This document shows, in pieces, positions 5,258 through 39,232 of a stretch of 64,000 nt of DNA. Every line of letters starts with the position of its first letter. Within the stretch, counting starts at the first letter, position 1. Source of the DNA: Rhodococcus qingshengii JCM 15477 (GTDB taxonomy: Bacteria > Actinomycetota > Actinomycetes > Mycobacteriales > Mycobacteriaceae); contig NZ_CP096563.1 of assembly GCF_023221595.1 (NCBI RefSeq), positions 5,885,001-5,949,000 of the forward strand, written 5' to 3'. Both the position numbers and the translations under genes were made by a program. The notes beneath the pieces are model-generated. The model ran no database searches. It was not told the origin of the DNA and worked only from the letters and a program-made list of their open reading frames with translations.

Positions 5258-5616
5258 GAGCGCGATCCGGGGAGCGCGACGAAGAACTTCTTCGACGGCT
5301 CAACCGTCTCCCAGGTACCGCGAAACGACTGCGGCACGAAAAATGCTTCCCCAGCGGAGAATTCGCGACGGTTTCCATCGAGGTCGATCAGCGCCACCCG
5401 GCCGCTGATCATGATGCAGACCTCGTCGTACGGATACGGGTCGCACAAGAGCGTGCCGGGCTCGCCTTCCCAACCACCGCCGAAGTATTCCCCGTTCGGA
5501 TCTCCGAACGACCTCCATTCGGATTCCGACCAGTTCGGGCTCGCGTCGTCACCCCATTCCGGGATGAACCGCGTCCCCTGCCCTGGCCCGAACATTCGAA
5601 TGTCGTTGACACTCAT
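5254..5616 (-). CDS. Cupin_3 (DUF861) family protein
   Basis: A 120-residue single-domain cupin. The motif order YDEVCIMISGRVALID, GEAFFVPQSFRGTWE and KKFFVAL matches the DUF861 family that includes ureidoglycine aminohydrolase-like proteins. The usual metal histidines are largely absent, so a metal-free or structural role is possible. I chose ATG at 5616, one base after the stop of the DMFase-like gene, with GAAGGAAA upstream; a longer in-frame start at 5658 would overlap that gene. In this operon it may act on an amide or ureido intermediate, or act as a partner of the large amidohydrolase. Both ideas are unproven. Confidence 0.8.
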   Translation of the reverse strand: MSVNDIRMFGPGQGTRFIPEWGDDASPNWSESEWRSFGDPNGEYFGGGWEGEPGTLLCDPYPYDEVCIMISGRVALIDLDGNRREFSAGEAFFVPQSFRGTWETVEPSKKFFVALPGSRS

Positions 5617-5617
5617 G

Positions 5618-7222
5618 TCATTTTTCCTTCGTGTTGGAGCTGGAAATTCGTGCAGCAAACAGATTCAGTACGTTTGCAGTTATTCGTTCGGTGAACGGAT
5701 CGTGATGGATCAGCCCGTTCACCCATTCGGTGGAACCTGCGTTGAACACGGAGCCGAGACCTCGCTTGTGACAGGCGACCATTCCCGATCCGTATTCGAG
5801 ATCACGAAGGTGATCTGGAGGCTCACTGCCATAGAAGCATTCGATGATTCCCTGCACTTCGGCGAAAGGCGCACCGATCGGAACTTTCCCGTTCCATTTG
5901 TCCCGCGAACCCGAAACTGCCGGCGCCATCGCGATGATCTCCAGATCCTCGGGAGCGCCGTCGACGCCGGTCGCATACGGCTGGCCCTTCCGGAACGTGA
6001 AATCCACGCCGTCCATCTCGAATCCGGCAACACAGATCGGGGCGATCCCGAAGTTGTCTCCGTAGTACAGGTCGGTTCCGTTCAACGCCCAATGATCCGG
6101 CCGGTATACCGTGAAACCGCCCGAAGACCTGGGAGTTGTTGCACCGTAACGATTGTAGACACCGGCCATGCCGGTCAATCCCATCGTCCACGCCCCCGGT
6201 CGGGCAACCTCGGGCGAATCCCACGCCGTCGTCACCCGGGTCGGGTCGACTTCTCGCATCGGATCGTCGAACGGATTCTTGTAACAGACTTGTGCGTCGT
6301 TTTCGAGGCGTACCTGCCACAGGAAGTTCCCGCCGAATCGCGCCAGACCACCACCCTCTTCGACGAAATCATCTATGCGGTCACGCATCTCCCAGGACCA
6401 GTACTCGTCGTGACCGACGACAACTGCGCATGAATATCCATGCAGCGCTGACGGATCGTTATGCAGATCGTGTTGTGTCACGTGGTGGACGCGGAACCCC
6501 TGCTCTTCCGCCCAGACCGTGAACGGCCTCTCGTAAGTGGCCCAGAAGGCGTCCGCATGGTGACGCGAGTAGCCGTTCACCCACGCCCATTCGTACGGCG
6601 GGTGACGGGGTATCCATCCGATTCCCGGTGTGTCGGTGTGGATGTTGCGTGCTGCGCCCTCGGGTTTGCGCAACATCCCCCGCGCGACGGGACGCTGCGT
6701 CGAGGAAATCGGTGTCGGCACATCGCCGGAGCCGTCCCGAACACCTCGGTAGTGGTTTGCCCCACCCCAGTCGTTGTAGGCCAACATCGTGCTGGTGGTG
6801 TGAATGAGTACGAAGTCGGCATGCTCGGGTTCGCGCGCCTTGACGACGAAGAAGCCCTCCCGCTCAATAGTCACCCCTTCGTGGAGCATCCGGACCAGAA
6901 CCAAGTACATGCCGGACGTCCACTTCGGATCTATCTCGACGGCAAGGGATTCCGACCAGTCGCAGCCCACTGCGTACGCGTCGGCAGGCGTCTGCTGCTG
7001 CTTGCCCGGCAGACCGACGTATTGCGCGACCTGTTGCGGCCGGGCGCCGTCTCGAACAATTTCGAGGTCGTATTCTTCTGCGGTGGTATGCACTCGGATC
7101 GAGACGGTGTCACCACCGAAGTACGAGAACCTGTCCGCATAGACCCATATCTCGGGAGCGCCCGGAACAATTCCGGGACGTTCGACCAACCCTCCGGGGA
7201 CCGACCATGCGTATTCGCTCAT
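5618..7222 (-). CDS. N,N-dimethylformamidase large-subunit-like amidohydrolase
   Basis: A 534-residue protein that resembles the beta (large) subunit of N,N-dimethylformamidase, an iron enzyme that cleaves amides. The N-terminal third looks like a beta-rich domain (WVYADRFSYFGGDTVSIRVH); the rest matches the conserved C-terminal domain. Residues 271-274 read HDEY, matching the His-x-Glu pair of the mononuclear iron site in the Paracoccus enzyme. Tyr149 in AYNDWGG is a candidate tyrosine ligand. No separate small subunit is visible. Its ATG overlaps the permease stop as ATGA, and one base separates its stop from the cupin start. The substrate is probably an imported amide. Confidence 0.82.
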   Translation of the reverse strand: MSEYAWSVPGGLVERPGIVPGAPEIWVYADRFSYFGGDTVSIRVHTTAEEYDLEIVRDGARPQQVAQYVGLPGKQQQTPADAYAVGCDWSESLAVEIDPKWTSGMYLVLVRMLHEGVTIEREGFFVVKAREPEHADFVLIHTTSTMLAYNDWGGANHYRGVRDGSGDVPTPISSTQRPVARGMLRKPEGAARNIHTDTPGIGWIPRHPPYEWAWVNGYSRHHADAFWATYERPFTVWAEEQGFRVHHVTQHDLHNDPSALHGYSCAVVVGHDEYWSWEMRDRIDDFVEEGGGLARFGGNFLWQVRLENDAQVCYKNPFDDPMREVDPTRVTTAWDSPEVARPGAWTMGLTGMAGVYNRYGATTPRSSGGFTVYRPDHWALNGTDLYYGDNFGIAPICVAGFEMDGVDFTFRKGQPYATGVDGAPEDLEIIAMAPAVSGSRDKWNGKVPIGAPFAEVQGIIECFYGSEPPDHLRDLEYGSGMVACHKRGLGSVFNAGSTEWVNGLIHHDPFTERITANVLNLFAARISSSNTKEK

Positions 7223-8673
7223 GCCGACAACTCCTCGACCGAGTGTTCACGTACGCGCATCCCGCGTCCCATGCCGAATGCGAAAGCCAACAGCAATGGC
7301 ACTGCCAACAAGAAGTTTTGCGCGGTGGTCAACCCGGTCAGGTCACTCATGTTCATCAAGAGGTATCCGAGCGCGACGATCAACGCCACTGCAGCGAGCG
7401 AGGGTGCAATCAACCTCTGCCACAGACCTTCACCGCGAGAATCCTGCGAGAAGAACCTGAGCACGGCGACGGAAGTGAGAACCTGCAACACCAGCACACC
7501 GATGATCGTTGGTGTATTCGTCCACACGACTACTTGGGTGTACGGGTCTGCGGGCGTCAGCGCAAAGCCGGCGATTGCCGCGAATACCAGTGCGCCTTGT
7601 GTGATTCCGGCGACGCTCGGCGTTCCAGTGGTCGGCGAAACCCGTGCAAGCGCGGCAGGAAAGACTTTCGCGCGCCCCATGGTGAGCAGATAGCGACTGC
7701 AAGCATTGTGGAGGGCAAGGCAACCCGCGAAGAAGCTCGTGACGATCAACAGATGCATCACGTCGGTCATCATGGAGCCGGCAAATTCATTGTTGAGATC
7801 GAAGATCAGCTCGGACGGGTCACCGCCGAGTAGGTCGCCCATCCGACTCGGGCCGACGGCCTGCACGATCACCCAAGCACAGAATGCGTAGACCACAGCC
7901 AGAACAGTGACTGCTGTGTAGGTCGCACGCGACACTGTGCGTTTGGAATCGACAACTTCCTCGCTGTAGATCGCCGTTTGCTCGAAACCGACGAAGGAGG
8001 TGAAGGTCAACACGAAGACGCTCGCCAGTCCGGCTGTCATGAAGGTCGACGGCGAAAAACTGTCGAGCGACAGTCCTTCGTGGCCGCCTTTCAACAGAAC
8101 CGCCACACAGAAGACTGCGAGGACGCCGAGCTCGAGCGCCATCAAAACGGCCAGCACCTTCGCGCCGATATCGACCCTGCGATATCCCACCACCACGACC
8201 AGAACTGCGACCGCCAATGCGCAGGTGTAGACGGAAACGGTTACTCCCAAGAACAACTCGATCGTCGACGAGAGAAAGATGCCGCAAGCGACGACGAATC
8301 CGATCTGGCCACCGAGATAGCCGATGTAAGCCAGCACAGAGGCGCCTGCGCCGACTGTTTTTCCGAGCCCTTCGGTGATGTAGGCGTAGAACGCGCCCGC
8401 GCCGCGGATATGCCTGCTCATCGCCGTGAAGCCGACGGCGAACAGTAGATAGACGATCCCGGGAACGACGTACCCCACCGGAAGCGCAGCGCCGGAAACC
8501 ATCAGGCCCAGTGGCGCGAATCCCACCAGGATCGTCAGTGGCGCCGCTGCGGCGATGACGAAGAAGACCAGATGACGGCTGTTGATAGTTCCGGCGCGCA
8601 GGCCCGAGGATGACGTGGGAGAACCGGATTCAGAATGCGTTCCTGCACCGGGAGGGTCGGTTTTTTCGGTCAT
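7219..8673 (-). CDS. APC-superfamily amino acid/amine permease
   Basis: A membrane permease of about 484 residues with some 12 hydrophobic segments. The first one carries the APC signature (FFVIAAAAPLTILVGFAPLG) and later GFEQTAIYSEE. I start it at ATG 8673 (MTEKTDPPGAG) because a GGAG ribosome site precedes it and the extra upstream residues have no membrane or conserved character. It is the promoter-proximal gene of the minus-strand operon and faces the LacI regulator across the operator cluster. It probably imports the amide or amine handled by the downstream enzymes; the substrate is unknown. Confidence 0.87.
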   Translation of the reverse strand: MTEKTDPPGAGTHSESGSPTSSSGLRAGTINSRHLVFFVIAAAAPLTILVGFAPLGLMVSGAALPVGYVVPGIVYLLFAVGFTAMSRHIRGAGAFYAYITEGLGKTVGAGASVLAYIGYLGGQIGFVVACGIFLSSTIELFLGVTVSVYTCALAVAVLVVVVGYRRVDIGAKVLAVLMALELGVLAVFCVAVLLKGGHEGLSLDSFSPSTFMTAGLASVFVLTFTSFVGFEQTAIYSEEVVDSKRTVSRATYTAVTVLAVVYAFCAWVIVQAVGPSRMGDLLGGDPSELIFDLNNEFAGSMMTDVMHLLIVTSFFAGCLALHNACSRYLLTMGRAKVFPAALARVSPTTGTPSVAGITQGALVFAAIAGFALTPADPYTQVVVWTNTPTIIGVLVLQVLTSVAVLRFFSQDSRGEGLWQRLIAPSLAAVALIVALGYLLMNMSDLTGLTTAQNFLLAVPLLLAFAFGMGRGMRVREHSVEELSA

Positions 8674-8778
8674 GGGGAGGCTCCGCGAGTTAAGGCAAGT
8701 ATGCGCCTGCCTGGTCAGGTTTCCCGAGGTTCGCCCGAATTTCTCTCGACGTTCGCCCGGTGTTCCTAAGAGAGTGCC

Positions 8779-8918
8779 GAATCGTTTCATCAGTGTCAAT
8801 ACCTGCGCTGAAACGATTCGACGTTTTGTTTTGAGGTGCCCCTCACCGGTGCACGCAACATGCCGAAACGATTGATCGATAGGCTGGAGACAAACCGACC
8901 AACGAGTAGAAACGATCC
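8779..8918. promoter_or_regulatory. Cluster of four LacI-type operator boxes
   Basis: Four copies of a 10-base box fitting GAAWCGWTTC lie in the divergent gap: GAATCGTTTC (8779-8788), GAAACGATTC (8810-8819), GAAACGATTG (8865-8874) and GAAACGATCC (8909-8918). The first two fully match the palindromic consensus with a central CG, the hallmark of LacI/GalR operators. Centres are 31, 55 and 44 bases apart. The last box ends three bases before the LacI GTG, so autoregulation and control of the permease operon are both likely. Confidence 0.75.
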
Positions 8919-8921
8919 GCA

Positions 8922-9968
8922 GTGGCTACCCCTGTTTCGCCGACGCTTCGTGATGTCGCCAACGCCGCCGGCGTCGCGGTGTCCACGGTCTCCTATGCAC
9001 TCAACGGCAAGGGCCGGGTCGACGCGGCCACTCGCGCTCGGGTTCAAGAGGTTGCCGACCGCCTTGGATACCGTGCCAATCGGTCGGCCCAGAATCTCAG
9101 GTCGGGTCGGACTGCCACCCTCGGGCTGATGCTCCCCGCTCCCGACCAACTGTCATCGGCCGAGTACCTCAATTTCGACTGGTACGGGCGCGTGGCGACC
9201 GCCGCGACCCAGGCTGCATTCCACGCCGATCACTCACTCCTCCTACTACCGTCGATGAAAGATCCGAACGGACTGCGGCGCATCGAGATGGACGGCGTAC
9301 TGGTCGTCGACCCGATGGTCGACGACCCGCGCGTCGAGGTTCTGCAGAAGATCGGAATCCCCTCTGTCGCAGTGGGTCCTGGACAATCCGGGCAATTCGG
9401 ATACTCCACCTCACCGGACCTCGTCTCCACCACGGAGACTCTTCTGAACCACCTCGCCGAACGTGGCGCAAGGGACATTTTCGTCCTCACTCCCGGAATG
9501 CATTCGGAGTGGACCCGCGCAACGACTTTCGCTTACTTCGAGTGGTGCCGCGCCCGAGGGGTGGCACCACGCACCAGCGAGGAATTGACGTCGTTTCCGG
9601 GCGCCAGCACCGTCGGAGGCCTCATCGGGGCCGCGTATGCGGCCACCCGCGAGGCCCTCGACTCCTCGACTCCGCCTGACGCGATCCTGTCGTTGATTCT
9701 CGGTTGCGCCCCGGCAGCGGCGCGAGCGGCCCTCGATCTCGGGCTGTCGATTCCGGGTGACGTCTTGATTGCACAGGACAGTGACGAACCCGCCCTGCTG
9801 GTTTCCCAGCCCCCGATCACTGCCTTCGACTTCTTCCCCCAAGAACAGGCGGCAGCGGCCGTAGATGCACTGTTGGCTCTGGTCAACGGTGACGAACCCC
9901 CAGTTCAGAGCTATACGCGTAGCGAACTCCGCGTGCGAGCGAGCACGGCCCATTCGCTCACACCATAA
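8922..9968 (+). CDS. LacI family transcriptional regulator
   Basis: A 348-residue regulator. The N-terminal HTH plus hinge reads LRDVANAAGVAVSTVSYALNG and NRSAQNLRSGRTATLGL, and the rest is a periplasmic-binding-protein-like effector domain. The start is GTG at 8922 with no clear ribosome site. It is divergent from the permease, DMFase-like, cupin and ALDH operon and is its natural regulator. A LacI member controlling an amide/amine pathway rather than sugar use is less common, so the effector may be the imported compound itself. Confidence 0.88.
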   Translation: MATPVSPTLRDVANAAGVAVSTVSYALNGKGRVDAATRARVQEVADRLGYRANRSAQNLRSGRTATLGLMLPAPDQLSSAEYLNFDWYGRVATAATQAAFHADHSLLLLPSMKDPNGLRRIEMDGVLVVDPMVDDPRVEVLQKIGIPSVAVGPGQSGQFGYSTSPDLVSTTETLLNHLAERGARDIFVLTPGMHSEWTRATTFAYFEWCRARGVAPRTSEELTSFPGASTVGGLIGAAYAATREALDSSTPPDAILSLILGCAPAAARAALDLGLSIPGDVLIAQDSDEPALLVSQPPITAFDFFPQEQAAAAVDALLALVNGDEPPVQSYTRSELRVRASTAHSLTP

Positions 9969-11754: not shown

Positions 11755-13074
11755 TTCCTTGTTGAGGTCCGGCCGGACGTCCTCGGTATCGGTCGCCTCG
11801 TCCACATGCTGAGGAGCGAAGAGCAGGCAGACGATGCTCAGGACGCACATGCCGATCAGCAGTGCGATGACCGGCCAGATGCTGCCGGTTGCCTTGTACA
11901 TCAGCGTCGACACCAGCGGAGACAACCCACCGAAGATCGCGCCTGCGCCCTGGTACGCCAACGAAATGCTCGTGTAGCGGGCCTGCGGCTTGAACATCTG
12001 TGACAGGACGGCGGCGATCGGGCCGTACGTGGCCGCCAGCACCAGTCGCATGACAGCGAAGGTCAGGAAGATCAGGAACACGGATCCGGACTTCAGCACC
12101 AGGAACTGCGGCGCTGCGAGAATCGCGACTGCCGCAAGGCCCCAGATGACGACGCGGACGCGTCCCACCTTGTCGCCGAGCCACGCCACGCCGAGAGTCG
12201 CGATCAATTCGACCACTGCAGCGACACTGAGGGCGTTGAGAATCAACGTCTCCGACAATCCGACATCGGGGTCGGTTGCGTATGCCGTGATGAAGGTCGT
12301 CACGAGGTAGTAGCCGCCGACTGCGACGGGCAGAATGCCGATGCCCAGGATGATCGGGCGCCAGTTGGTCACCAGCGCGTACTTGAGCGGGAGCATTTCC
12401 GGTACGTCCGCGGACTTCACCTCGGATTCGAAAACCGGGGACTCTTCGACCTTCAGGCGAACGACCAAGCCGACGAGAATCAGCAGCGCCGAGCAGAGGA
12501 ACGGCAGACGCCAAGCCCACTCGCGCAGAGCGTCGTCGCCGAAGGTGGAGAGAATGCTGAAGAAACCTGTGGCCAGGAGCGCGCCGGCCGGGTTGCCCAG
12601 CTGAGCGAAACCGCCGTAGAAGGTCTTCTTGTCCTCGGGTGCATGCTCGACGGCCATCAGGACCGCGCCGCCCCATTCGCCGCCGACGGCAAAGCCCTGG
12701 ACGAAGCGGAGCAGTACCAGCAGTAACGGCGCCCAGAACCCGATCGACGCGTAAGTGGGCAACATGCCGATGAGGAACGTGCCTGCACCCATCAGCGTCA
12801 AAGTCACCACCAATGCGGTGCGTCGGCCCATCTTGTCACCGACATGGCCGAACACGATTCCGCCGAGCGGGCGAGCGAAGAAACCGACGGCGTATGTCGC
12901 GAACGCCGCCGCAACGCCGGTCAGGCGGTCGGTTCCGGGTGGGAAGAAGATGTCACCGAACACCAGGGCGGCTGCCGTGGCATACACGTAGAAGTCGTAC
13001 CACTCGATAGTTGTACCGACGAAGGCTGCAAATCCCGCCTTGCGGGCCTTCACGATCTGTTGCTCTCGGTTCAT
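11740..13074 (-). CDS. MFS transporter, metabolite:H+ symporter (MHS/ProP) type
   Basis: A 444-residue 12-TM transporter. The N terminus (FVGTTIEWYDFYVYATAA) and the loop motif GDKMGRRTALV are signatures of the MHS subfamily, which takes up organic acids, betaines or shikimate. Its ATG overlaps the TAA of the amidohydrolase by one base (TAATG), with GAGGAAAA upstream, so the two are coupled. It probably imports the amidohydrolase substrate. Confidence 0.9.
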   Translation of the reverse strand: MNREQQIVKARKAGFAAFVGTTIEWYDFYVYATAAALVFGDIFFPPGTDRLTGVAAAFATYAVGFFARPLGGIVFGHVGDKMGRRTALVVTLTLMGAGTFLIGMLPTYASIGFWAPLLLVLLRFVQGFAVGGEWGGAVLMAVEHAPEDKKTFYGGFAQLGNPAGALLATGFFSILSTFGDDALREWAWRLPFLCSALLILVGLVVRLKVEESPVFESEVKSADVPEMLPLKYALVTNWRPIILGIGILPVAVGGYYLVTTFITAYATDPDVGLSETLILNALSVAAVVELIATLGVAWLGDKVGRVRVVIWGLAAVAILAAPQFLVLKSGSVFLIFLTFAVMRLVLAATYGPIAAVLSQMFKPQARYTSISLAYQGAGAIFGGLSPLVSTLMYKATGSIWPVIALLIGMCVLSIVCLLFAPQHVDEATDTEDVRPDLNKESASA

Positions 13075-14789
13075 TACTTTTCCTCGGTGGTCGAAGTGCT
13101 CGACAATAGGTGGTTATGACCTGAATGTGCGAGTTCGCCGTCGATCCAGGTCTCTCGGACCTCGATCTGCGCAATCGCGTCGGCCGGAACCTCGAGGGGA
13201 TCCGCGCCCAGAATGACGAAGTCGGCCCGCTTGCCGACCGAGATGCTGCCCAGCTCTGCTTCGCGGCCCAGCGCACGCGCACCGTTGAGGGTATGAGCCT
13301 GCAATGCCTGGTCGGCGGTGATGCGGAGTGCATCGGAGCCGAGCTGATGGCCCTGACGCGTCACACGAGTAACGGCTGCCTGAATTGCTTCGAGCGGCTT
13401 CGGCTCTGCGACGGGGGCGTCGGAGCTGATGGTCACGGGAACTTCGGCAGCGATGAACTCGCCGAGCGGGTTGAACCGCTCGCCCGGAGTGCCGATCGCA
13501 GCGGTGACGCCCTCGCCCCAGTTGTAGTAGTGCTGTGGCTGGTTCACCGGGTAGACGCCGGCCAGGTTCATCCTTGCGATCTGCTCGGCCGTCGGGAGTC
13601 CGCAATGCTCGATGCGGTGACGAGCGTCGGCGTCGGGGTGAGCCTTCTGCGCAGCTTCGATGGCATCGAGCACCATGTCGATGGCGGTCGGTGACTGAGC
13701 GTGCGTGGCGGTCTGCAGACCCACCGAATGTGCCTTGGCAATCAGCTCCGAGTAGTCCGCCGGCTCGTGGTAGAGCTGCCCGGTGCGGCACGGGTCGCCC
13801 ACGTAGCCGTCGGGGAAGTATGCGGTCCAGCCTCCGAGTGTGCCGTCGGCGTAGAACTTGATGCCGCCGAACGCGAGCCGCGAATTGCCGAAGGCTCCGT
13901 GCATTCCCGTGTCGATGACGTGATCGAGGAGGTGGCTGAGCATGTACATGCTGACGCGGGTCTTGAGCTGATCCTGCTCGGCCAGACGCAGGTACATGTC
14001 GAATTCACGCCGGGTCACCTGGCAGTCACCGATGGTGGTGACGCCACCGGCCAGGAACTTGTCCTGAGCGACCGACAGCTGGCGAAGGTGCTCTTCCGGC
14101 TCGTCCTCGAGATGGAAGTTGGGGCCGTGATGGCCGACCTTCACTCCGTTGACGCCGGTGAGAATGTTGCACGCGGCGTCGGAGAGCTCACCGGTGAGTT
14201 CGCCGTCTTCATCTCGGAAGAACTCGCCACCGGCCGGATTCTCGGTGCTCGCGTCGATACCGTGCTTGTCGAAAGTGAAGGAGTTGACGACGCCGCCGTG
14301 ACCGCTCGCGTTCATGAGGTAGACCTCGCGATCGGTGGCCACCTGATCGAGCTCTTCCTTGAGCGGGTGACGTCCTTCGATCAGGTTGCGGTGCTCGTAG
14401 CCGTAACCACGAATCGGGACACCCGCAGGTGCTGTGAGCGCCGCTTCCTGAAGTAGCGCAATGATTCCGGGGATGGAATGTGCCTTCTCCGGCCCACAGT
14501 CCACCCAGCTGAGCATCTGCCCGTACATCAACGGGTGTGCATGTGGATCGACGAAGCCGGGGACGACGGTGGCGCCGTCGAGTTCGACCACCGCGGTTGT
14601 GCGAGTGCTCAGCCGACGCGCCTCCGTGCGGCATTCCTCGAGCGTTCCCACCGCTGCAAAGCGGTTTCCGAACACCAGGAACGCTTCGGCTCCCACCGTG
14701 CTGTCGTCAACGGTGTGGATCTTGGCGCCGGTGAAGATCGTGCCGGTGGCGTCGAGAGGCGAGGCTTCGTGCGTGTGCAACTTGCGCAT
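13074..14789 (-). CDS. Amidohydrolase family 3 (YtcJ-like) metal-dependent hydrolase
   Basis: A 571-residue enzyme with the metal-binding DPHAHP motif near residue 82, later NASGHGG, HAQSP, HRIEHC and SSDAPV, and a C-terminal HTLNGARALG segment. This is the order of amidohydrolase family 3. These enzymes hydrolyse amide or related bonds of small molecules; the substrate is not evident. It has a good ribosome site (GAAGGACC). It is first in the operon with the MHS transporter and divergent from the Lrp/AsnC regulator. Confidence 0.88.
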   Translation of the reverse strand: MRKLHTHEASPLDATGTIFTGAKIHTVDDSTVGAEAFLVFGNRFAAVGTLEECRTEARRLSTRTTAVVELDGATVVPGFVDPHAHPLMYGQMLSWVDCGPEKAHSIPGIIALLQEAALTAPAGVPIRGYGYEHRNLIEGRHPLKEELDQVATDREVYLMNASGHGGVVNSFTFDKHGIDASTENPAGGEFFRDEDGELTGELSDAACNILTGVNGVKVGHHGPNFHLEDEPEEHLRQLSVAQDKFLAGGVTTIGDCQVTRREFDMYLRLAEQDQLKTRVSMYMLSHLLDHVIDTGMHGAFGNSRLAFGGIKFYADGTLGGWTAYFPDGYVGDPCRTGQLYHEPADYSELIAKAHSVGLQTATHAQSPTAIDMVLDAIEAAQKAHPDADARHRIEHCGLPTAEQIARMNLAGVYPVNQPQHYYNWGEGVTAAIGTPGERFNPLGEFIAAEVPVTISSDAPVAEPKPLEAIQAAVTRVTRQGHQLGSDALRITADQALQAHTLNGARALGREAELGSISVGKRADFVILGADPLEVPADAIAQIEVRETWIDGELAHSGHNHLLSSTSTTEEK

Positions 14790-30135: not shown

Positions 30136-31329
30136 TCAGATGCGTTCGATGATTGTGGCGTTGGCCATGCCGGCGCCCTCGCACATGGTCTGCAATCCGT
30201 AGCGTCCGCCGGTGGCCTCGAGGTGGTTGACCATCGTGGTCAGCAGACGAGTACCCGAGGACCCCAGGGCATGGCCGAGTGCAATCGCGCCGCCCCACGG
30301 GTTGAGCTTTGCCGGGTCGGCGCCGAACTCGTGAGCCCAGGCGAGTGGAACGGGAGCGAAGGCTTCGTTGACCTCGTAGGTGTCGATGTCGTCGATGCTC
30401 AGACCCGCGCGAGCGAGCACCTTGTGGGTGGCTGGGATGGGTGCGGTGAGCATGAAGATCGGGTCATCGCCCGCAACGGAGAAGGAATGGAAACGAGCTC
30501 GCGGCGTCAGCCCCAGCTTCGACGCCATTTCTTCGCTCATGATCAGTGCTGCGGACGCGCCGTCGGTGAGCGGCGACGAGTTACCGGGAGTGATCGACCA
30601 CTGCGCCTCGGGGAAGCGCTGCGCGTACTTCTCCGAGTAGAACGACGGCTTCAAACCGGCGAGTCCCTCGGCGGTAGTAGACGCGCGAACCGTCTCGTCG
30701 ACGATATGCGAGACGGTCTCACCGGCGGCGTTGGTCACCGAGATCGGCAGAATCTCCTTGTCGAAGAGCCCCTTCGCCGCTGCCTCTGCTGCCCGCTGGT
30801 GGGACTGCGCGGAGAATGCGTCGAGAGCGTCGCGGTCAAGCTTCCACTTGGCGGCGATCAATTCTGCAGAGATTCCCTGGTTGACCAGGCCTTCGGGGTA
30901 GCGAGCCGCGACGCCCGGACCGGAAGCGTCCTTCCCCATCGTCGTGGTACCCATCGGGACACGACTCATGGATTCGACGCCTGCCGCGATCACGATGTCG
31001 TAGGCCCCGGCGATCACGCCCTGCGCCGCAAAGTGCGCAGCTTGCTGACTTGATCCGCACTGGCGATCAATCGTGGTGGCGGGTACCGACTCGGGGAACC
31101 CTGCCGACAGGACCGCGCTGCGGGTGATGTTGAGCGCCTGCTCACCGGCCTGGCCGACGCAACCGCCGATCACGTCGTCCACCAGGGCGGGGTCGAGGCC
31201 GTTTCGCGAGGTGATGGAACGCAGAACGTGGGCCATCAGTTCGACAGGGTGCGTCCCGGACAGTGCTCCGCCCGGCTTTCCCTTGCCGGACGCGATCCGG
31301 ACTACATCGACGATCACTGCCTTGGTCAT
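30136..31329 (-). CDS. Acetyl-CoA acetyltransferase (thiolase)
   Basis: A 397-residue thiolase with the acylated cysteine Cys91 in [24 protein letters not shown] and the second cysteine in [13 protein letters not shown]. All three catalytic elements are present, so it should cleave 3-ketoacyl-CoA to acetyl-CoA plus a shortened acyl-CoA. It is the first gene of the thiolase-SDR-TetR operon, with a GAAGGGAACGAAG site and a palindromic operator 96 bases upstream. Confidence 0.9.
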
Positions 31330-31424
31330 CTTCGTTCCCTTCGAGGACGTGCATTGCTGGGGCGGTCCGGCACCCGAGTTTCGTGGCGCCGGGCACCGGA
31401 CCGAGATCGAGGGAGCACCCTGAC

Positions 31425-31438
31425 TTAGCGCTCGCTAA
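31425..31438. promoter_or_regulatory. TetR-type palindrome upstream of the thiolase operon
   Basis: TTAGCG-CT-CGCTAA forms a 14-base palindrome with perfect 6-base arms. Sites of the TTAGCG/CGCTAA kind are common for TetR regulators of fatty acid metabolism. It is the only clear signal in the 31330-31696 gap, which otherwise holds no gene and leads into the LanKC start. Confidence 0.7.
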
Positions 31439-31696
31439 AGAACTACCACCGACTTGATCCCCTCGTCAAGAGGCGCCTCCGAACTCGAAACAAATGTGGC
31501 CGACTATAAGCTGGGCGATCAGTGACCTCGCCTGGCCCACACCCTTCATTAGTACTTTCGAATGATAGGTTTTCAATCTTCGCCCGAAATGTCCGGAATC
31601 GGATAACCTTCCGCCACAAGCAATCCAAGCCACAGGGGATTCGGGGCGTGGCACCAATCGATGACAACCGCAGGGGGACTGACCGGGAGGTTTGGC

Positions 31697-34279
31697 GTGG
31701 ACCTGCGATACGTTGCCTTCACGCGTGCCGACCCGCATTTCTACGACCGAATCAGAACGGTCACCCGACCAGATACATCAACTGACCAGCACTTTATCCC
31801 CGCGAAGTCGGTGGATTGGTCGCTCTGGCGGCGCGGTCCCCAAAGTGGACCGTGGAACTACTTCCAACCGCCCGACGGTCTGCTGCCAGAACAAGGATGG
31901 AAGATTCACTGCTCCGCTACCCGAGCCAACGCGCAGGAGCTGCTCGATACCGTTTCCGTGTATTGCGGTCACAATCATGTGCCGTTCAAATTTCTTCGGA
32001 CGGCAGCAGACCTCATGTTGTCCAACAGCAAGCAGGCCAATCGAACTTCCAGCGGAAAATTCATCACGATCTATCCGGCGGATGGTGTTGCCACACAACG
32101 TGTCATCACCGAACTAGACACGCTTGTCACCGGTGCCGACGGGCCGTACATCCTCAGCGATGTGCGATGGAACCGGGGACCGCTCTACTTACGGTACGGC
32201 GCGTATCTGCCCATGCAGACCTACGATTCATTCGGCGATCGCGTCCCCGCAATTCGGCGTCCTGACGGATCGCTCGAACCCGATGTGCGCGGCACTTCCT
32301 TCAGAACTCCGGACTGGGTACAAATCCCGGACTTCGTTCGCGCGCAGCAAGACAAGCTGAAATCACATGACGAATTCCCCTATTCGATCAATGAAGCCCT
32401 GCACTTCAGCAACAGCGGGGGGATCTACTCCGCGTTCGACGACGCCGGCATCGATCTGGTCATCAAAGAAGGCCGTCCCTTTACCGCCCCGGACGCCAAC
32501 GGCCGGTACGCAATCGACCGCATCCGTAACGAGTACGACAAGTTGACTCACCTTGCCGACAACCCGTACGCACCTTCTGCGATCAGGTTGTTCGAGCGCG
32601 AGGGACACCACTTCCTTGTCACCGAGCGCGCTGCCGGCACTCCCCTGAATCAGGAAGTTGCGCTCCGCCACCCACTGATACGCGCGGACCAGACACTCAG
32701 TTCCCGAACGGAATACAGAACCTGGGCACTCGACATTGCACAACAGTTGACTACCGCAGTCGAGAGCTTCCACAACGCCGGAATCGTTCATGCCGATCTT
32801 CACCCTGGCAACGTCATGTGCTCACCGTCCGGTATTCGGATCATCGACTTCGAGATGGCCCACAACATCGACGAGCATCCGCCCCGGTCCACCGGAGCCC
32901 CCGGATACACAGCACCTCGACAGTTGACAGGAATCGCGGCGGATCGATACTCGTTGGGATGCATCGAGCTGGGACTCTTTGTCCCACTTACGACATTGTT
33001 CCCTCTCGATCGCAACAAGATTCCCGAACTCATCGACTATGCGGTGTCTCGATTCGATCTTCCTCGTGCCTTCGGTGCCTCGCTCTATTCGATGCTCGAC
33101 GTACAGGCGCCGGAGCCGGAGAATCGCCCGCATCGTTGGGACACGTCGTCGAACGAAACCTTGCAACGCACGGCCGCTCTATTGCGCTGCGGCATCCTCG
33201 CCTCGCTTGATCTCTCCCGCCCTGATCGACTCTTTCCCGGTGACATCGCCCAGTTCGAAGTGAACGGCTACGGCATTGCTCACGGCTCGTGCGGAAACCT
33301 GCTCGCCGATGTACTTCCCGCAGACACCTTGGAGTCAGTTCTGGAATGGACTGAACATCAAGTTGATTCGGATACTCAACCAAAGTTCGGCTTCTTCGAC
33401 GGGCTCGCGGGTGCGGTGCATACATTTCGGCATCACGGGCGACATTCGACAGCCGACAGGTGGGTCGAGACTTTGCGTCGAGCCCCACTCGACGACATCG
33501 ACTCCAGCCTTTTCAGCGGCCTTTCCGGAATCGGTTGCCTCCTACTCGAGGAATCGGTTTCACGACCGACTGTGTCACCCACTCTCGCTGTCGTGACCGA
33601 GACTCTGCGCGAACGAATTTCAGCTGCTCGCTTGCATGTCCGCGACGCCGGCGGAACACCTTGGGCAGTGGCCGGCCGAGGTGGGCTGATGCGGGGACCG
33701 AGCGGACAAGCACTGTTCTGGACTCGCCACTACGAACTGAGTGGTGATCCTCGATCGCTGGAACACGCACGCCAGCTCGTCGACATCGATCTGTCTGTGA
33801 TGTCGATGTGCCCTGACGGGTCGATGCAGCTGAGAGAGGAGCGCCGGACGATGCCGTATCTCGGATCCGGGTCTGTCGGTGTGGGCCTGGTACTTCTACA
33901 ACTTCTGCGCCATGTCGACGAACCGCGTTACGCAGCTGCGGTGCGTGCGATATCCCGCGCCGCCACAGTCGAATTCACTGCCCAAGCCGGACTACTCAAC
34001 GGGCGAGCCGGGCTGATTCTGTTTCTCAGCGAACTCTCCAAGACTCCATACGCCGGCGCCGATTGTGAACAGACGCTTGCACAGCAGTTTCAGCTTCTGG
34101 GCTTGCACAGCCTCAATCACGCAGGAGGCCTGCACTTTCCAGGTGAACAGAACCTGAGACTCTCGACAGACTGGGCAACCGGATCTGCAGGAATACTGGC
34201 GTTGCTCCGATATACCCGATCGGCAACTGCCCGACAGTCGTTTCCACTGATGTGCGCGTCGAACTGCCACATCGCCTAG
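31697..34279 (+). CDS. Class III lanthipeptide synthetase (LanKC)
   Basis: An 860-residue three-domain enzyme that makes lanthionine or labionin rings. The N-terminal lyase part is seen in KFITIYPADG and GPYILSDVRWNRGPLYLRYGAY. The Ser/Thr kinase domain has VHADLHPGNVM (about residues 363-373) and IIDFEMA (about 382-388). The C-terminal LanC-like cyclase has AHGSCGN near 527, YLGSGSVGVG near 720 and TDWATGSAGI. The Cys-Cys-His zinc ligands of class IV cyclases are missing, which places it in class III. I start it at GTG 31697 (MDLRYVAFTRAD) because GGGAGG is six bases upstream and class III enzymes begin this way. Confidence 0.9.
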   Translation: MDLRYVAFTRADPHFYDRIRTVTRPDTSTDQHFIPAKSVDWSLWRRGPQSGPWNYFQPPDGLLPEQGWKIHCSATRANAQELLDTVSVYCGHNHVPFKFLRTAADLMLSNSKQANRTSSGKFITIYPADGVATQRVITELDTLVTGADGPYILSDVRWNRGPLYLRYGAYLPMQTYDSFGDRVPAIRRPDGSLEPDVRGTSFRTPDWVQIPDFVRAQQDKLKSHDEFPYSINEALHFSNSGGIYSAFDDAGIDLVIKEGRPFTAPDANGRYAIDRIRNEYDKLTHLADNPYAPSAIRLFEREGHHFLVTERAAGTPLNQEVALRHPLIRADQTLSSRTEYRTWALDIAQQLTTAVESFHNAGIVHADLHPGNVMCSPSGIRIIDFEMAHNIDEHPPRSTGAPGYTAPRQLTGIAADRYSLGCIELGLFVPLTTLFPLDRNKIPELIDYAVSRFDLPRAFGASLYSMLDVQAPEPENRPHRWDTSSNETLQRTAALLRCGILASLDLSRPDRLFPGDIAQFEVNGYGIAHGSCGNLLADVLPADTLESVLEWTEHQVDSDTQPKFGFFDGLAGAVHTFRHHGRHSTADRWVETLRRAPLDDIDSSLFSGLSGIGCLLLEESVSRPTVSPTLAVVTETLRERISAARLHVRDAGGTPWAVAGRGGLMRGPSGQALFWTRHYELSGDPRSLEHARQLVDIDLSVMSMCPDGSMQLREERRTMPYLGSGSVGVGLVLLQLLRHVDEPRYAAAVRAISRAATVEFTAQAGLLNGRAGLILFLSELSKTPYAGADCEQTLAQQFQLLGLHSLNHAGGLHFPGEQNLRLSTDWATGSAGILALLRYTRSATARQSFPLMCASNCHIA

Positions 34280-34416
34280 TTGTTCGGAAGTTATCACCCA
34301 CGGCAGATTGGAGCACAGAAGTACCAGGCGAAAAACCTGGAATTAAATCAACACCGCAAGCAAACTCGATCGATCAAATCCATCGGCAAGAACGCCGATC
34401 AACAAAGGAAATGACA

Positions 34417-34617
34417 ATGGACGCTATTCTCTCCCTTCAAGATCTGTCAGTCGCCGCCGGCAACGTCGGAGATGCCGGCCAACTCGAGCAGAACCGGCAA
34501 TCAGTTCCCTCAGTTTCTTCTGCCTCTGACCTCAGGCCGATACCTCGGAGCAAGTCCGGGGTATCGGCTTTCGCAATCAGTGCGAATCGTCAAACGGACA
34601 GTATTGTTTCACCATGA
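34417..34617 (+). CDS. Class III lanthipeptide precursor with apparent frameshift in the core
   Basis: The leader starts MDAILSLQDLSV, which carries the I-L-x-L-Q-D-L hallmark of class III precursors such as labyrinthopeptin. ATG 34417 has AAAGGA seven bases upstream. The written frame runs to 66 residues without any Cys, so no ring could form. In the -1 frame, 34500-34529 reads ISSLSFFCL then TGA, with the Ser-x2-Ser-x2-Cys ring pattern, and the terminator-like hairpin follows that stop. I think the functional gene ends at 34529 and that a base is missing, or a sequencing error is present, between about 34460 and 34500. Confidence 0.7.
   Translation: MDAILSLQDLSVAAGNVGDAGQLEQNRQSVPSVSSASDLRPIPRSKSGVSAFAISANRQTDSIVSP
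34536..34568 (+). terminator. Hairpin directly after the predicted precursor stop (attenuator)
   Basis: Fourteen-base arms (34536-34549 and 34555-34568) pair with one T-G wobble around the loop GCAAG; the outer part is GCCGATACC with GGTATCGGC. TTT follows. It starts seven bases after the -1-frame stop (34527-34529). An attenuator between precursor and downstream genes is usual in RiPP clusters. Confidence 0.7.
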
Positions 34618-34651
34618 GACGCATACACACTTCACCGAGCTGCATTCGCCG

Positions 34652-35692
34652 ATGATGTGCGCGACCTGGCGGCAATGCCGAGGGCAGATCGTATGGTCAT
34701 CGGCGGTGATATTCCTACTGATCCTGACAGCCGCACTTTCGGGCTGGTTCGTTCAGCGTTCGGGCGAGAGTTGGGACTTCGGCGACATCTGCTCACGCTG
34801 GTACGACGGAGGTGGCGGTTGCCGTGCCGACACCGCTCTCACCTTGACGACGCTTCTCGTACTCCTACTACCGTTCGCCTCAGGAATGCTGGTCGGCGTC
34901 ACCACATTCGCCCGAGACTTCGAGCAGGGTCCCGAACACCTCGATTTTCTCGAGTCCACCAGCCTTGTTCGATGGTACTTCTTGCGGGTCCTGGTGGTCT
35001 TCGTTCCCATCACCCTTGCGATGGCAGTCCTGGGCATGGTGCTCGGCTGGACCCAGACGCTTGGCCGGGGACAGGCGGCAACAAATGAGGCCACCTCGTT
35101 TTCCTTGATGGAGTTCCCCAATTTTCAGACGACGGGAATCGTCGTCGGCGCCTACACCTTTTTAGCAATGACTACCGGCAGCGCAGCCGCATTGCTCATC
35201 AGCAACACCGTCTTCGCGATGGTCATGACTCTTCTCGCGTTCTTGATCGTGCCCGTCGCACTGAGCGCGACGATGCGCGAGCATTACTTGGCCCCCGACA
35301 CTGAAGTGCAACCCATCGACGGACTGGCACGTGCAGCGGAATATCCACCGTCGCCGTATGAAAATCTCGACTCGAGGTGGGTCATCGATGCCGGCTTCGC
35401 CGATACGGATGGCAACATGATCGACGCCGATTACACAATGTGCTGGGGCTCAGACAATTCCGATCGCAAGCAGCAAGACCTCGAGGTCGACAACTGCCTT
35501 CGAGAACAGGGAATCGATCACTATGCCGTGATCTATCACCCACAGAGCCGGTACTGGCAGTTTCAGTTCATCGAGACTGCCGTGATGCTGTTGTGCTCCG
35601 GGTTGATGGTGGCGCTCGCACTCGTCGGCGCACGTGGACTACGTCGGCGACCCGCCTATAGCCGACTGTCCGAAATGTCGAAATCGATTTGA
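34652..35692 (+). CDS. ABC-2-type transporter membrane subunit-like protein
   Basis: A protein of about 346 residues with roughly six hydrophobic segments: two in the first half (VIFLLILTAALSGWFV and TLLVLLLPFASGMLVGVT), three in the middle, a Cys-containing extracytoplasmic loop of about 100 residues, and one near the C terminus. This is the layout of ABC-2-type exporter permeases. ATG 34652 or 34655 is the likely start; the frame is open farther back, but that part overlaps the precursor and hairpin. No ATPase gene is nearby, so a partner must be encoded elsewhere, or it has been lost. Confidence 0.65.
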   Translation: MMCATWRQCRGQIVWSSAVIFLLILTAALSGWFVQRSGESWDFGDICSRWYDGGGGCRADTALTLTTLLVLLLPFASGMLVGVTTFARDFEQGPEHLDFLESTSLVRWYFLRVLVVFVPITLAMAVLGMVLGWTQTLGRGQAATNEATSFSLMEFPNFQTTGIVVGAYTFLAMTTGSAAALLISNTVFAMVMTLLAFLIVPVALSATMREHYLAPDTEVQPIDGLARAAEYPPSPYENLDSRWVIDAGFADTDGNMIDADYTMCWGSDNSDRKQQDLEVDNCLREQGIDHYAVIYHPQSRYWQFQFIETAVMLLCSGLMVALALVGARGLRRRPAYSRLSEMSKSI

Positions 35693-35754
35693 TAGCAGCA
35701 ATTTTCGATCCACATTCTCTTGTGTTCGAAACTTTGTTCGATTATGCTTTCGGC

Positions 35755-36993
35755 ATGGACAGTCGGGATGCGTGGCAACTGGATGGTGAGGGCCTCAAGA
35801 GCGAGGTTCTCGATCTGGTGCGCGCCCGGCACGAGTTGCAGTCGCGGATGGTGTTGTTGATCGTGGAGATGTTTTCCCGGGAAGTTCTCGGCGGGAAGGG
35901 TTTTCGGGCGATCGCGCAGTGGTTGCATGGTTCGACGAATTTGGAGATCGGTGAGTGTAGTCTGCTGGTCGGGTTGGCGCGGTTGTTGATGCTCGAACCT
36001 GTTGTCGCGGATGCGTTTCATCGCGGTGACGTGGATGCGTTGAAGGCGCGGCAGGTGGCGTCGTTTTGTCAGCATCCGCCGAAGAACATGACCCTGGCGG
36101 ATGTGGACAAGGCTCGCGGGATTTTGTTGTCGTTGGCGTCGAAGAACATTGCGGATTGCGATGCGGTGCGGGCGGCGATTCGGCGGATCGAGAAGCAGTA
36201 CGGAAAACGCGAGGACGGCGTCCCGGTCGGCGAGGATTCCGAACGTAACGAGTTCTACGCCTCGAAAGGCTTGTACGGGCGGGTCACTGTGAAGGGTGAT
36301 CTGGATGCGATCAACGGGGCCCGGTTGATCACGTTGTTGTCGAGTCTGTCTGCGCCGACGCCGGAGAAAGACGGCGTCAAAGACGCCCGCACTCCGGCGC
36401 TACGGCGTGCGGACGGCTTTTGCGAGTTGTTGCGCCGGTACGAGCGGGCGGGGTTGGGTCCGATCGAGGGCGGAGTGAAACCGCACATCACGGTCACCGC
36501 CAGCGCGAAAGACATGACGGACCTCAAGGCGTTGAAGGACCTCTTGCCGTCGACTCAGGAACTGGGTTTCGCGTGGACGGATTGGGTGGGCCCCATCAGT
36601 ATCGATACCGCGCGGATGTTGGCGTGCGACTGCACCGTGACGCGAATTTTGTTGGATGAGAACGGTGTTCCGCTCGACTGCGGCAAGGAAGCGAGAACAG
36701 CGACGGTTCCGCAAAGGCGAGCACTGGCCGTCCGGGATGGCGGGTGCGCGTTTCCGGGGTGCGGGACTCCGTCGGGGTGGTGCGATGCCCATCATATTGT
36801 TCACTGGAACGATGGTGGCCCAACAGATCTCGACAACCTGATCTTGTTGTGCGGTCATCACCACCGGACGATGCACCACACGGAATGGCGGGTGGAGATC
36901 GGACCGGATCGAAAGACGGTGTTCTATCCACCGATGTCGATCGATCCGTATCAACAGCCGATCGGCGGGAACAGCCCACCCACAGCGGCGTGA
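35755..36993 (+). CDS. DUF222/HNH endonuclease (13E12-like family)
   Basis: A 412-residue protein. The N-terminal DUF222 region covers about residues 1-300, and a C-terminal HNH motif reads CAFPGCGTPSGWCDAHHIVHW and then GPTDLDNLILLCGHHHR. This family is widely duplicated in actinobacterial genomes, often as mobile or repeat-like elements. Codon use differs from the neighbours, with many TTG leucine and GTT/GTG valine codons, which suggests transfer. ATG 35755 has no clear ribosome site; the frame opens further up at 35689. It sits directly after the lanthipeptide locus. Confidence 0.85.
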   Translation: MDSRDAWQLDGEGLKSEVLDLVRARHELQSRMVLLIVEMFSREVLGGKGFRAIAQWLHGSTNLEIGECSLLVGLARLLMLEPVVADAFHRGDVDALKARQVASFCQHPPKNMTLADVDKARGILLSLASKNIADCDAVRAAIRRIEKQYGKREDGVPVGEDSERNEFYASKGLYGRVTVKGDLDAINGARLITLLSSLSAPTPEKDGVKDARTPALRRADGFCELLRRYERAGLGPIEGGVKPHITVTASAKDMTDLKALKDLLPSTQELGFAWTDWVGPISIDTARMLACDCTVTRILLDENGVPLDCGKEARTATVPQRRALAVRDGGCAFPGCGTPSGWCDAHHIVHWNDGGPTDLDNLILLCGHHHRTMHHTEWRVEIGPDRKTVFYPPMSIDPYQQPIGGNSPPTAA

Positions 36994-37063: not shown

Positions 37064-37123
37064 ATCCCAACCCCTCAAATCCCAACCCCTCAAATCCCAG
37101 CCCCTCAGATCCCAGCCCTTCGC
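37064..37123. repeat. 15-base tandem repeat, four units
   Basis: Units of the form ATCCCRRCCCCTCAR run head to tail: 37064-37078, 37079-37093, 37094-37108 and a degenerate 37109-37123. The stop codon and last residues of the SDR gene (minus strand) fall inside units 3 and 4. This could be a slippage-prone 3' end. Confidence 0.75.
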
Positions 37124-37947
37124 ACGAGAGCGTCAGTGGCAGAAGGGGATACAACGTCAATCGCTCGTAACAGCCCCGCGTACCGCGGATACAGCTCGAC
37201 GGGACGCGTATTGATCGCCCTCAAGATCCACGATGCAGCTTGATCGGCCGTCAGCGCCGGCTGGCTCACGTAATCCGCCGTCGGCGCGATCATCGGTGTT
37301 CGTATGAGTGGGAATTGCACTGTGGTGACATCGACACCGGTGCCGTGACATTCCGCGCCGAGGCTTCGGCCGAATGCACTGAGAGCAGACTTCGACGCGT
37401 GATAGGCGCTGAACCTGGGCATCACGCCCGCAGTGACTCCCCAGGTTCCGACGTTGATGATGTGTCCGGACTTCGCCTCGAGCATCGCGGGCAGTAGCCG
37501 CAGCGTCAGTCTTGTCGGCCCGAAGTAGTTCAGCGCCATGGTGCGCTCGTAGTCATGGAATCGGTCGACCGAATCCAACGCGGTACGCCGGATCGAGCGA
37601 CCCGCATTGTTGACGAGGATGTCGACCGACCCGAATCGATCCGCGATCGTCTCCGCGAGTTCGTCGACGGCTTCACCGCTGGAGAGGTCCGCAGGCACGA
37701 TGTGTGCCCATCCTCCCCTGCGGTGAATCTCGTCCCGTACGTGTTCGAGGTTTTCCTCACCGCGCGCGACCAGGATCATCTCGGCTCCCCGACGAGCCAA
37801 TAGATGAGCTGTCGCCTCACCGATCCCCGACGAGGCTCCCGTCAGGACGATGGTCTTGTCGGAAAGCGTGACGCCGCGAGACGGAACAAGGGAGCGCAGA
37901 CGCGTCGGCGGTCTCAATGCAAGATTGCTGAGAATCGATCTGATCAC
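37105..37947 (-). CDS. Short-chain dehydrogenase/reductase
   Basis: A 280-residue SDR with TGASSGIGEAT, VNNAG, catalytic Ser in INVGTWG and Tyr in YHASKSAL. It resembles mycobacterial SDRs with a long basic N terminus. I start it at GTG 37947 (MIRSILSNLAL), which has GAGG upstream; the open frame reaches 38067 but the extra residues have no conserved feature. The C terminus (DALVRRAGI) is encoded by the tandem repeat. The substrate is unknown. Confidence 0.82.
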   Translation of the reverse strand: MIRSILSNLALRPPTRLRSLVPSRGVTLSDKTIVLTGASSGIGEATAHLLARRGAEMILVARGEENLEHVRDEIHRRGGWAHIVPADLSSGEAVDELAETIADRFGSVDILVNNAGRSIRRTALDSVDRFHDYERTMALNYFGPTRLTLRLLPAMLEAKSGHIINVGTWGVTAGVMPRFSAYHASKSALSAFGRSLGAECHGTGVDVTTVQFPLIRTPMIAPTADYVSQPALTADQAASWILRAINTRPVELYPRYAGLLRAIDVVSPSATDALVRRAGI

Positions 37948-38026
37948 GTCGGCCTCGGTTCGATCTTCGCGTGCGATTCGGTGCGAACCCGTCCCTGAAT
38001 AGCCCACTTCGGACGCACCGCGGAAA

Positions 38027-38040
38027 TTACTCAAAAGTAA
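38027..38040. promoter_or_regulatory. Small palindrome in the gap between SDR and AurF-like gene
   Basis: TTACT-CAAA-AGTAA is a perfect 5-base inverted repeat. The gap 37948-38224 is otherwise without genes. It is a candidate operator of the divergent promoters. Confidence 0.45.
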
Positions 38041-38224
38041 GTTATGGCGCCGTTTCGGCCGTGTCAAGAATTCGTCGGGATTCAGGAGTATCTGCCACTA
38101 GCTTTTCCTGATACCTCGGGTTACATTAAATCCAGACCGAGTGCCAGCGATCACACAACCGGCCCTCGATTCCACCGAACACCGCGAGAAATACCAGCGG
38201 TGACCGAAACGAAGAGGAGACGCC

Positions 38225-39232
38225 ATGACGCTCACATCGCCGCTCGACAAGCGCGGAGAAGCATCCGACGACTCGTACAACGAGACGCTTCGACTCCTGT
38301 CCGAGGGCTCGGTGCACAAGCACTTCGACCCGTACCTCGACATCGACTGGGACTCCCCCGAGTTTGCCGTCGTCCCGAACGATCGCCGCTGGATCCTCCC
38401 GGCCGAGACTGACCCGCTGGGTGCACACCCGTGGTACCAGTCGCAGTCCGAGGCCAGGCAGATCGAAATCGGCATGTGGCGCCAGGCCAATGTCGCGAAG
38501 GTCGGTCTCCAGTTCGAGAACATTCTGATCCGCGGCATGATGCAGTACGTCTTCTCACTACCCAACGATTCGGCCGAGGCGCGCTACTGCACGCACGAGT
38601 CGGTCGAAGAGTGCAACCACACGATGATGTTCCAGGAGATGGTCAACCGCATCGGTGCCGACGCTCCCGGGATGAGCCGTCCGATGAAGATGCTTGCACC
38701 CTTCATCCCCCTCGCTGCGGGTCCGTTCCCCGAACTGTTCTTCGTCGGTGTCCTCGCCGGTGAAGAGCCGATCGACCACATTCAGAAGAGCATCCTGCGC
38801 GCCGGCGGCCAGATCCACCCGATCATGCAGTCGGTCATGGCCATCCACGTAGCCGAGGAAGCGCGTCATATCTCGTTCGCGCACAAGCTTCTGAGCCGTC
38901 GCATCCCGCTGATGTCACGCCCGAACCGGTTCGTCCTCTCGCTGCTGTTCCCGATCGTCATGCGCATTCTCTGTGACGCCATCGTCATCCCGCCGAAGTC
39001 CTTCTGGAAGCAGTTCGACATCCCGAAGTCCGTGAAGAAGGACCTGTTCTGGGATCTGCCCGAGTCGCGCCAGACCCTGCGCAACTACTTCGGTGACGTC
39101 CGCATGCTGGCCACCGACACCGGTCTGATGAACCGTGCCTCGCGCCTGGTGTGGAAGGCCTGCAAGATGGACGGCCGCGCATCACGCTTCCGTAGCGAAC
39201 CTCACCGCAGCTCGCACAACGCCGCCGCGTAG
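38225..39232 (+). CDS. AurF-like diiron oxygenase family protein
   Basis: A 335-residue helical protein with diiron-binding motifs in ESVEECNHTMMFQEM (near residue 120), GVLAGEEPID and HVAEEARHISFAHK. These are the E..EExxH repeats of the AurF (p-aminobenzoate N-oxygenase) family. AurF oxidises aromatic amines, but many actinobacterial members have unknown substrates. The strong GAGGAG site supports ATG 38225. It is 33 bases from the ferredoxin-reductase gene, which probably supplies the electrons. I recall the same pairing in Mycobacterium tuberculosis (Rv0885-fprB). Confidence 0.85.
   Translation: MTLTSPLDKRGEASDDSYNETLRLLSEGSVHKHFDPYLDIDWDSPEFAVVPNDRRWILPAETDPLGAHPWYQSQSEARQIEIGMWRQANVAKVGLQFENILIRGMMQYVFSLPNDSAEARYCTHESVEECNHTMMFQEMVNRIGADAPGMSRPMKMLAPFIPLAAGPFPELFFVGVLAGEEPIDHIQKSILRAGGQIHPIMQSVMAIHVAEEARHISFAHKLLSRRIPLMSRPNRFVLSLLFPIVMRILCDAIVIPPKSFWKQFDIPKSVKKDLFWDLPESRQTLRNYFGDVRMLATDTGLMNRASRLVWKACKMDGRASRFRSEPHRSSHNAAA

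Follow-up and report, generated by a model that had tools for sequence, protein, structure and literature searches.

Class III lanthipeptide clusters have been described in Rhodococcus. A survey of 616 Rhodococcus genomes counted 136 such clusters (PMC11433410). R. erythropolis MGMM8 and four strains compared with it were reported to carry a class III cluster (antiSMASH 'lanthipeptide-class-iii') without an identified product (PMC10819586), and a study of strain IGTS8 called its lanthipeptide cluster conserved (PMC7358434). Across the class, ~55% of precursors lack a gene annotation (PMC7268733). Here, we describe a class III locus in a 64,000-nucleotide stretch of Rhodococcus qingshengii JCM 15477 (NZ_CP096563.1, positions 5,885,001 to 5,949,000, forward strand), referred to as the window, in which an intact gene for the lanthionine synthetase LanKC is followed by a short precursor gene whose leader and core lie in different frames. 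Comparison with relatives makes it very probable that this precursor recently lost a single base between its leader and core and was thereby inactivated. Because the locus is also present in four relatives of the window genome, the cluster published for R. erythropolis is probably the same one: it agrees with the window locus in genus, species group and class call, but the window precursor differs in being out of frame. The type of locus is already known in R. erythropolis, and the finding is that a short precursor gene was probably lost not long ago, not a new kind of system. In the literature searched, we found no account of a precursor of the window type or of its frame break.

A preliminary description of the window, drawn from its letters, had proposed a complete LanKC followed by a gene with a class III leader and a ribosome site, and both proposals hold. 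The LanKC frame is open up to its stop at 34279 and encodes, in one chain, a RamC-type lyase, a kinase and a LanC-like cyclase domain (Pfam RamC_N, Pkinase and LANC_like). The protein scores 884 bits with the class III model NCBIfam NF038151 (cut-off 575) and 375 bits with the class IV model (cut-off 650). Its kinase domain reads DFE instead of DFG (IIDFEMA in the translation), a replacement described as a trait of LanKC kinases (PMC10604976). By each of these features, the enzyme belongs to class III. The assigned start, GTG 31697, is supported because the open frames of R. erythropolis NBRC 15567 and Rhodococcus sp. IEGM 1409 begin just one codon before the aligned position. The top matches in the PDB are three LanKC entries (8sao, 8sap and 8sam), led by 8sao with 256 bits over residues 51-837, which we take to be structures of ThurKC. 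This LanKC from Bacillus thuringiensis (PMC10604976) shares DFE in place of DFG with the window enzyme, but is of firmicute origin and remote in sequence.

The precursor gene begins after a gap of 131 bases, directly behind AAAGGA, at one of two ATG codons: 34411 (MTM..., 68 residues) or 34417 (MDA..., 66 residues), both leading to the stop at 34615-34617. The leader that follows reads MDAILSLQDLSVAAGNVGDAGQLEQN and holds the class III hallmark MDAILSLQDLSV; LSLQ, present in the window and in all four close relatives, corresponds to the LxLQ motif of class III leaders (PMC7268733). Past the leader, the written frame runs on as a Ser-rich tail that is free of Cys, as had been claimed. The core is found in the -1 frame, which at 34500-34529 reads I-S-S-L-S-F-F-C-L up to a stop at 34527-34529. 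It contains the SxxSxxC pattern recognized in the preliminary description, a form of the published ring motif SxxSx(2-5)C (PMC11251773). This motif stands in the leader frame in four of four relatives and is missing from it in the window, and because of this, the window precursor is, on the evidence of its sequence, a broken class III precursor and not a working one. There is also no sign of a replacement elsewhere in the genome. The precursor DNA is present as one copy, and a search with the intact precursor of Rhodococcus sp. P-2 returned the broken copy as its sole match. The class III precursor profile NF038154 yielded three matches in the window genome, at 11.8-12.9 bits, below its cut-off, in a search that also gives matches in 8 of 14 control genomes.

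The relatives reveal what was lost. Among 28 Rhodococcus genomes searched, four besides the window genome encode LanKC at 88-91% identity, all on the chromosome: R. qingshengii IEGM 1359, R. erythropolis NBRC 15567, Rhodococcus sp. P-2 and Rhodococcus sp. IEGM 1409. Another LanKC, with 42-45% identity over almost its full length, occurs in four more. The precursor DNA has one match in each of the same five LanKC genomes, and a sixth genome (G004) has a 27-base match alone. In all four close relatives, leader and core form a single frame, MDAILSLQDLSVAAGNVGDAGQL(E/D)QNAAISSLSFFC(L), ending at the stop aligned with window positions 34527-34529. Their short core, AAISSLSFFC(L), ends in C in two relatives and in CL in the other two, a three-base difference. 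The window has one base fewer than all of them where leader and core meet. In the alignment, its core departs from those of the two CL-type relatives at just one further site, and that change is synonymous when read in the ancestral frame. A one-base difference separating leader and core had been suspected from the window, with alignment to relatives as the way to check it; the fused frames bear this out, and none of the four relatives shares the 66-residue frame or conserves residues past 34529.

The hairpin behind the core completes the comparison. As first noted, it starts on the seventh base after the core stop and lies within the written 66-residue frame. Its stem pairs 34536-34549 with 34555-34568 through 13 Watson-Crick pairs and one G-U pair; folding adds one closing pair and gives -28.2 kcal/mol. 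The spacing of six nucleotides from the core stop is identical in the window and its four relatives (5/5). A generic terminator scan of 31300-35800 did not report the hairpin, which has just three T behind its stem, and no RNA family matched in 31000-36000 at the gathering threshold; we call it terminator-like from its position and conservation. Since the fused frame, its stop and the hairpin are conserved in all four relatives, the arrangement in the window is not a product of chance. Given the fused frames of the relatives and the base that the window lacks, we conclude that the Cys-free frame of 66 residues is a broken precursor that would be read through its own terminator-like hairpin (Table 1).

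Table 1. Features of the lanthipeptide locus, in positions of the window
Feature	Positions	Strand	Basis
LanKC, class III lanthionine synthetase, 860 aa, intact	31697..34279	+	NF038151, Pfam, relatives
Precursor frame as written, 68 aa (66 from ATG 34417); class III leader, frame lost ahead of core, Cys-free	34411..34617	+	Translation, four relatives
Leader MDAILSLQDLSVAAGNVGDAGQLEQ, contains LxLQ (LSLQ)	34417..34491	+	Relatives, translation
Stretch in which the window has one base fewer than all four chromosomal relatives	34490..34500	+	Alignment
Ancestral core end ISSLSFFCL and stop, -1 relative to leader, SxxSxxC	34500..34529	+	In leader frame in 4/4 relatives
Hairpin, 14-bp stem, 5-nt loop, six bases past ancestral stop, terminator-like	34536..34568	+	Position kept in window and 4/4 relatives
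Membrane protein, ABC-2-like permease, 346 aa, possible exporter part	34652..35692	+	Homologue naming, sub-cut-off Pfam, divergent loci

In its intact form, the locus would work as a class III pathway. LanKC would bind the helix formed by the LSLQ leader, phosphorylate the core serines and eliminate the phosphate, and close one ring on the single Cys, either a labionin or a lanthionine formed from SxxSxxC. The leader would then be removed and the peptide exported, perhaps via the adjoining permease. A lanthionine- or labionin-containing product is thus a prediction for the intact locus. In the window, translation would exit the core frame ahead of the Cys, then cross the hairpin and continue in intergenic DNA. 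Without a Cys in the peptide, a thioether ring would be impossible, and dehydration of serines is the most that LanKC could achieve. The LanKC gene would remain intact owing to the recency of the loss.

Six of seven intact precursors that were scanned (three of the window type, four divergent) match NF038154 (lanthi_III_a) at 12.7-15.1 bits, with a cut-off of 22; the three of the window type match from end to end (profile 1-41 of 41), carry an LSLQ leader and have their Cys as the last or next-to-last residue. Neither the 68-residue nor the 66-residue version of the window frame has a match. With SapB/AmfS-type lanthipeptides, the locus has the enzyme class in common, but precursors of the window type carry one ring motif only, SxxSxxC; SSLS..C of the core may resemble a ring of SapB, the second one in the preliminary description. 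Erythropolis-type precursors have no match to NF033212 (SapB/AmfS-type), and one divergent precursor (G017) matches weakly, at 13.2 of 25 bits.

Public proteins contain both intact and damaged forms. A search with the 68-residue frame matched 7 of 9 candidate proteins, four of which end in FFCL in frame. The core AAISSLSFFCL is contained in P0004, P0005 and P0008; P0006, which has 13 member sequences, keeps the same frame and end, has the first ring serine replaced by Ile and gives no match to NF038154. In P0007, the core is present and the frame runs beyond the stop, and in P0009, on a 3.8-kb contig, the precursor is broken in another frame. The remaining protein is the window's own 66-residue frame, found on two contigs, the longest of 161,978 bp; the window contig has 6,405,102 bases and is hence distinct from both.

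The enzyme gene bears on the age of the loss. For LanKC, the four pairs that include the window have dN/dS values of 0.178-0.234, and the six other pairs 0.182-0.228. Changes private to the window sequence comprise 15 synonymous and 9 non-synonymous ones; the corresponding totals for the other four sequences are 124 and 46. Selection on LanKC is thus not clearly relaxed, and we therefore infer that the precursor was lost recently. An older loss, with the whole pathway disappearing from the lineage, overlaps with this explanation and appears rather unlikely. Damage of several kinds could be taken as its trace: megaplasmid copies retain, in the stretches read, ~50 codons of LanKC and a damaged precursor, the permease of R. 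erythropolis NBRC 15567 is fragmented, and further damaged precursors occur among the public proteins. However, both LanKC and the permease are full length in the window, and dN/dS of LanKC is not raised.

One-base gaps are a frequent error of long-read sequencing, and the missing base might thus be an artifact of sequencing or assembly in a strain with an intact precursor. The rest of the locus has a functional appearance that would fit such an error: LanKC is intact and under selection, the hairpin is intact, and the one further change in the core, seen against the two CL-type relatives, leaves the residues encoded in the core frame unaltered. To place the break among others, 400 kb of the window genome were compared reciprocally with 400 kb of the P-2 genome. 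Without filtering, 7 of 226 testable open frames of P-2 are split across frames in the window genome and 5 of 224 in the reverse direction; these counts include open frames on the opposite strand, and a codon-composition filter was therefore applied, which left frame breaks in 2/209 testable genes in the window genome and in 1/210 in P-2 (Fisher p 0.62). The window assembly has no significant excess of broken genes. Moreover, positions 34411-34530 hold no homopolymer of four or more bases, and the identical 66-residue frame stands on the two shorter public contigs. Because frame breaks are not in excess and the 66-residue frame recurs on two other contigs, we favor a true mutation and consider an error unlikely.

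Several observations weigh against a recent, genuine loss of a class III precursor, or against parts of that reading. The two public contigs that hold the 66-residue frame could come from a second assembly of this strain. Internal stops interrupt 14/209 best matches in the window genome and 8/210 in P-2 (Fisher p 0.20); most of the 14 lie near gene starts, and between 15% and 90% of the gene, the counts are 6 and 5. The non-synonymous share of private LanKC changes is slightly high in the window, 9/24 compared with 46/170 in the other four together, which amounts to no difference (Fisher p 0.33). All matches to NF038154 stay below the curated cut-off, and the intact divergent precursor of G023 has no match at all. 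The ring type, finally, is a guess, since the SxxSxxC of the window core has one residue fewer than the SxxSxxxC seen in the four divergent cores.

A selective explanation was also considered, namely that the precursor is lost repeatedly (in the window, on the megaplasmids, in one more public frame break and in the ring-serine change with its 13 members) while LanKC, at least in the window, is kept since non-producers that keep the enzyme gain, either by cheating in producer populations or through another function of LanKC, for instance on a peptide whose gene lies elsewhere. We regard this as quite improbable. It is more doubtful still that the Cys-free frame of 66 or 68 residues serves as a new functional substrate, whose many serines LanKC would dehydrate without forming rings. 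Its leader is intact and ~40 more Ser-rich residues follow in an open frame, and a cysteine-free companion peptide has been mentioned beside one Streptomyces subfamily (PMC11251773). However, the tail is translated hairpin and intergenic DNA, and it occurs in one of the seven matching public proteins; as a conserved protein, the tail frame was rejected since all four relatives end at the core stop, ahead of it. Programmed ribosomal frameshifting, which would fuse leader and core by a -1 shift and might seem invited by their joint preservation one frame apart near a stable hairpin, is barely credible and was rejected, given that 34417-34530 holds no XXXYYYZ slippery heptamer, that the relatives require no shift and that the hairpin lies beyond the core-frame stop and is identical in these non-shifting relatives.

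A recent one-base loss in the precursor, the reading we favor, leaves the picture of class III biosynthesis unchanged. It indicates that LanKC, on which the calling of such clusters relies, can be intact and yet adjoin a dead precursor, and the comparison supplies the sequence of an intact, short precursor with a single ring motif in R. erythropolis and its kin.

The membrane protein encoded behind the precursor may take part in export. Pfam gave no match at 0.001, and at higher E-values, sub-threshold hits to Tetraspanin and GAP1-M only. A homologue search, which scored the 7,995 candidates sharing most words, found 17 proteins, and all 8 with an organism name are from Rhodococcus. The source of one homologue, 45% identical, labels it 'ABC transporter permease', and a distant homologue (P0025) reaches 25.9 bits with ABC2_membrane_2 (cut-off 27.2). 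A precomputed PF26999 assignment is attached to all 17, although three that we scanned against Pfam ourselves (P0010, P0021 and P0023) gave no match. No ATPase gene was seen beside the window permease. The permease gene of R. erythropolis NBRC 15567 is fragmented (L036, ~7065-8981), and 1.3-1.4 kb of unrelated sequence stands in place of part of it. In the window, a DUF222/HNH endonuclease gene (35689-36993) directly follows the permease.

The divergent loci have related surroundings. Five stretches around divergent LanKC genes or fragments were inspected: a permease homologue is present in L041 (residues 1-334), partial in L040 and L043, and absent from L039 and L042. Between the divergent LanKC and the permease, L041 encodes a histidine kinase together with a response regulator of the LuxR type (3966-5944), and L040 lists similar frames. 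From a comparison of listed translations, the window genes at 37105-38067 and 38225-39232 have counterparts following the L040 and L041 loci, which occupy the same chromosomal place as the window locus. Four divergent loci have precursors of their own, ending in YSWSALSVALC, YSWSGLSTIFC, YSWSAWSISLC and YAWSSLSFAICP, all with SxxSxxxC; the SxxSxxC of the window family, one residue shorter, is still within the published SxxSx(2-5)C (PMC11251773).

Remnants of the locus are also carried by plasmids. A precursor-like stretch of 80-84% identity was found on four Rhodococcus plasmids of 486-704 kb (NZ_CP077418, NZ_CP014942, NZ_AP023173 and NZ_CP089607). Over the 9.2 kb read per plasmid, about the first 50 codons are left of LanKC, and the precursor loses its frame at a place other than in the window; one copy has ACG as its start. 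No gene is listed beneath these precursor matches, in a collection whose gene table is incomplete. After the precursor remnant on the four plasmids, and in IEGM 1409 (L038, ~13033-13889), there is a patch of very short minus-strand open frames, among them one of 33 aa behind a AAGGAGGTGAG site (read by eye) and one of 44 aa; two that were tested had no Pfam match. IEGM 1409 and the four large plasmids have the first part of this patch in common; it does not occur in the window. The window also lacks an insert of ~1.5 kb between the thiolase and LanKC genes, which in P-2 (L035, 5452-6231) and IEGM 1409 (L038, 8655-9434) encodes a secreted-looking protein of 259 aa; that of P-2 has no Pfam match.

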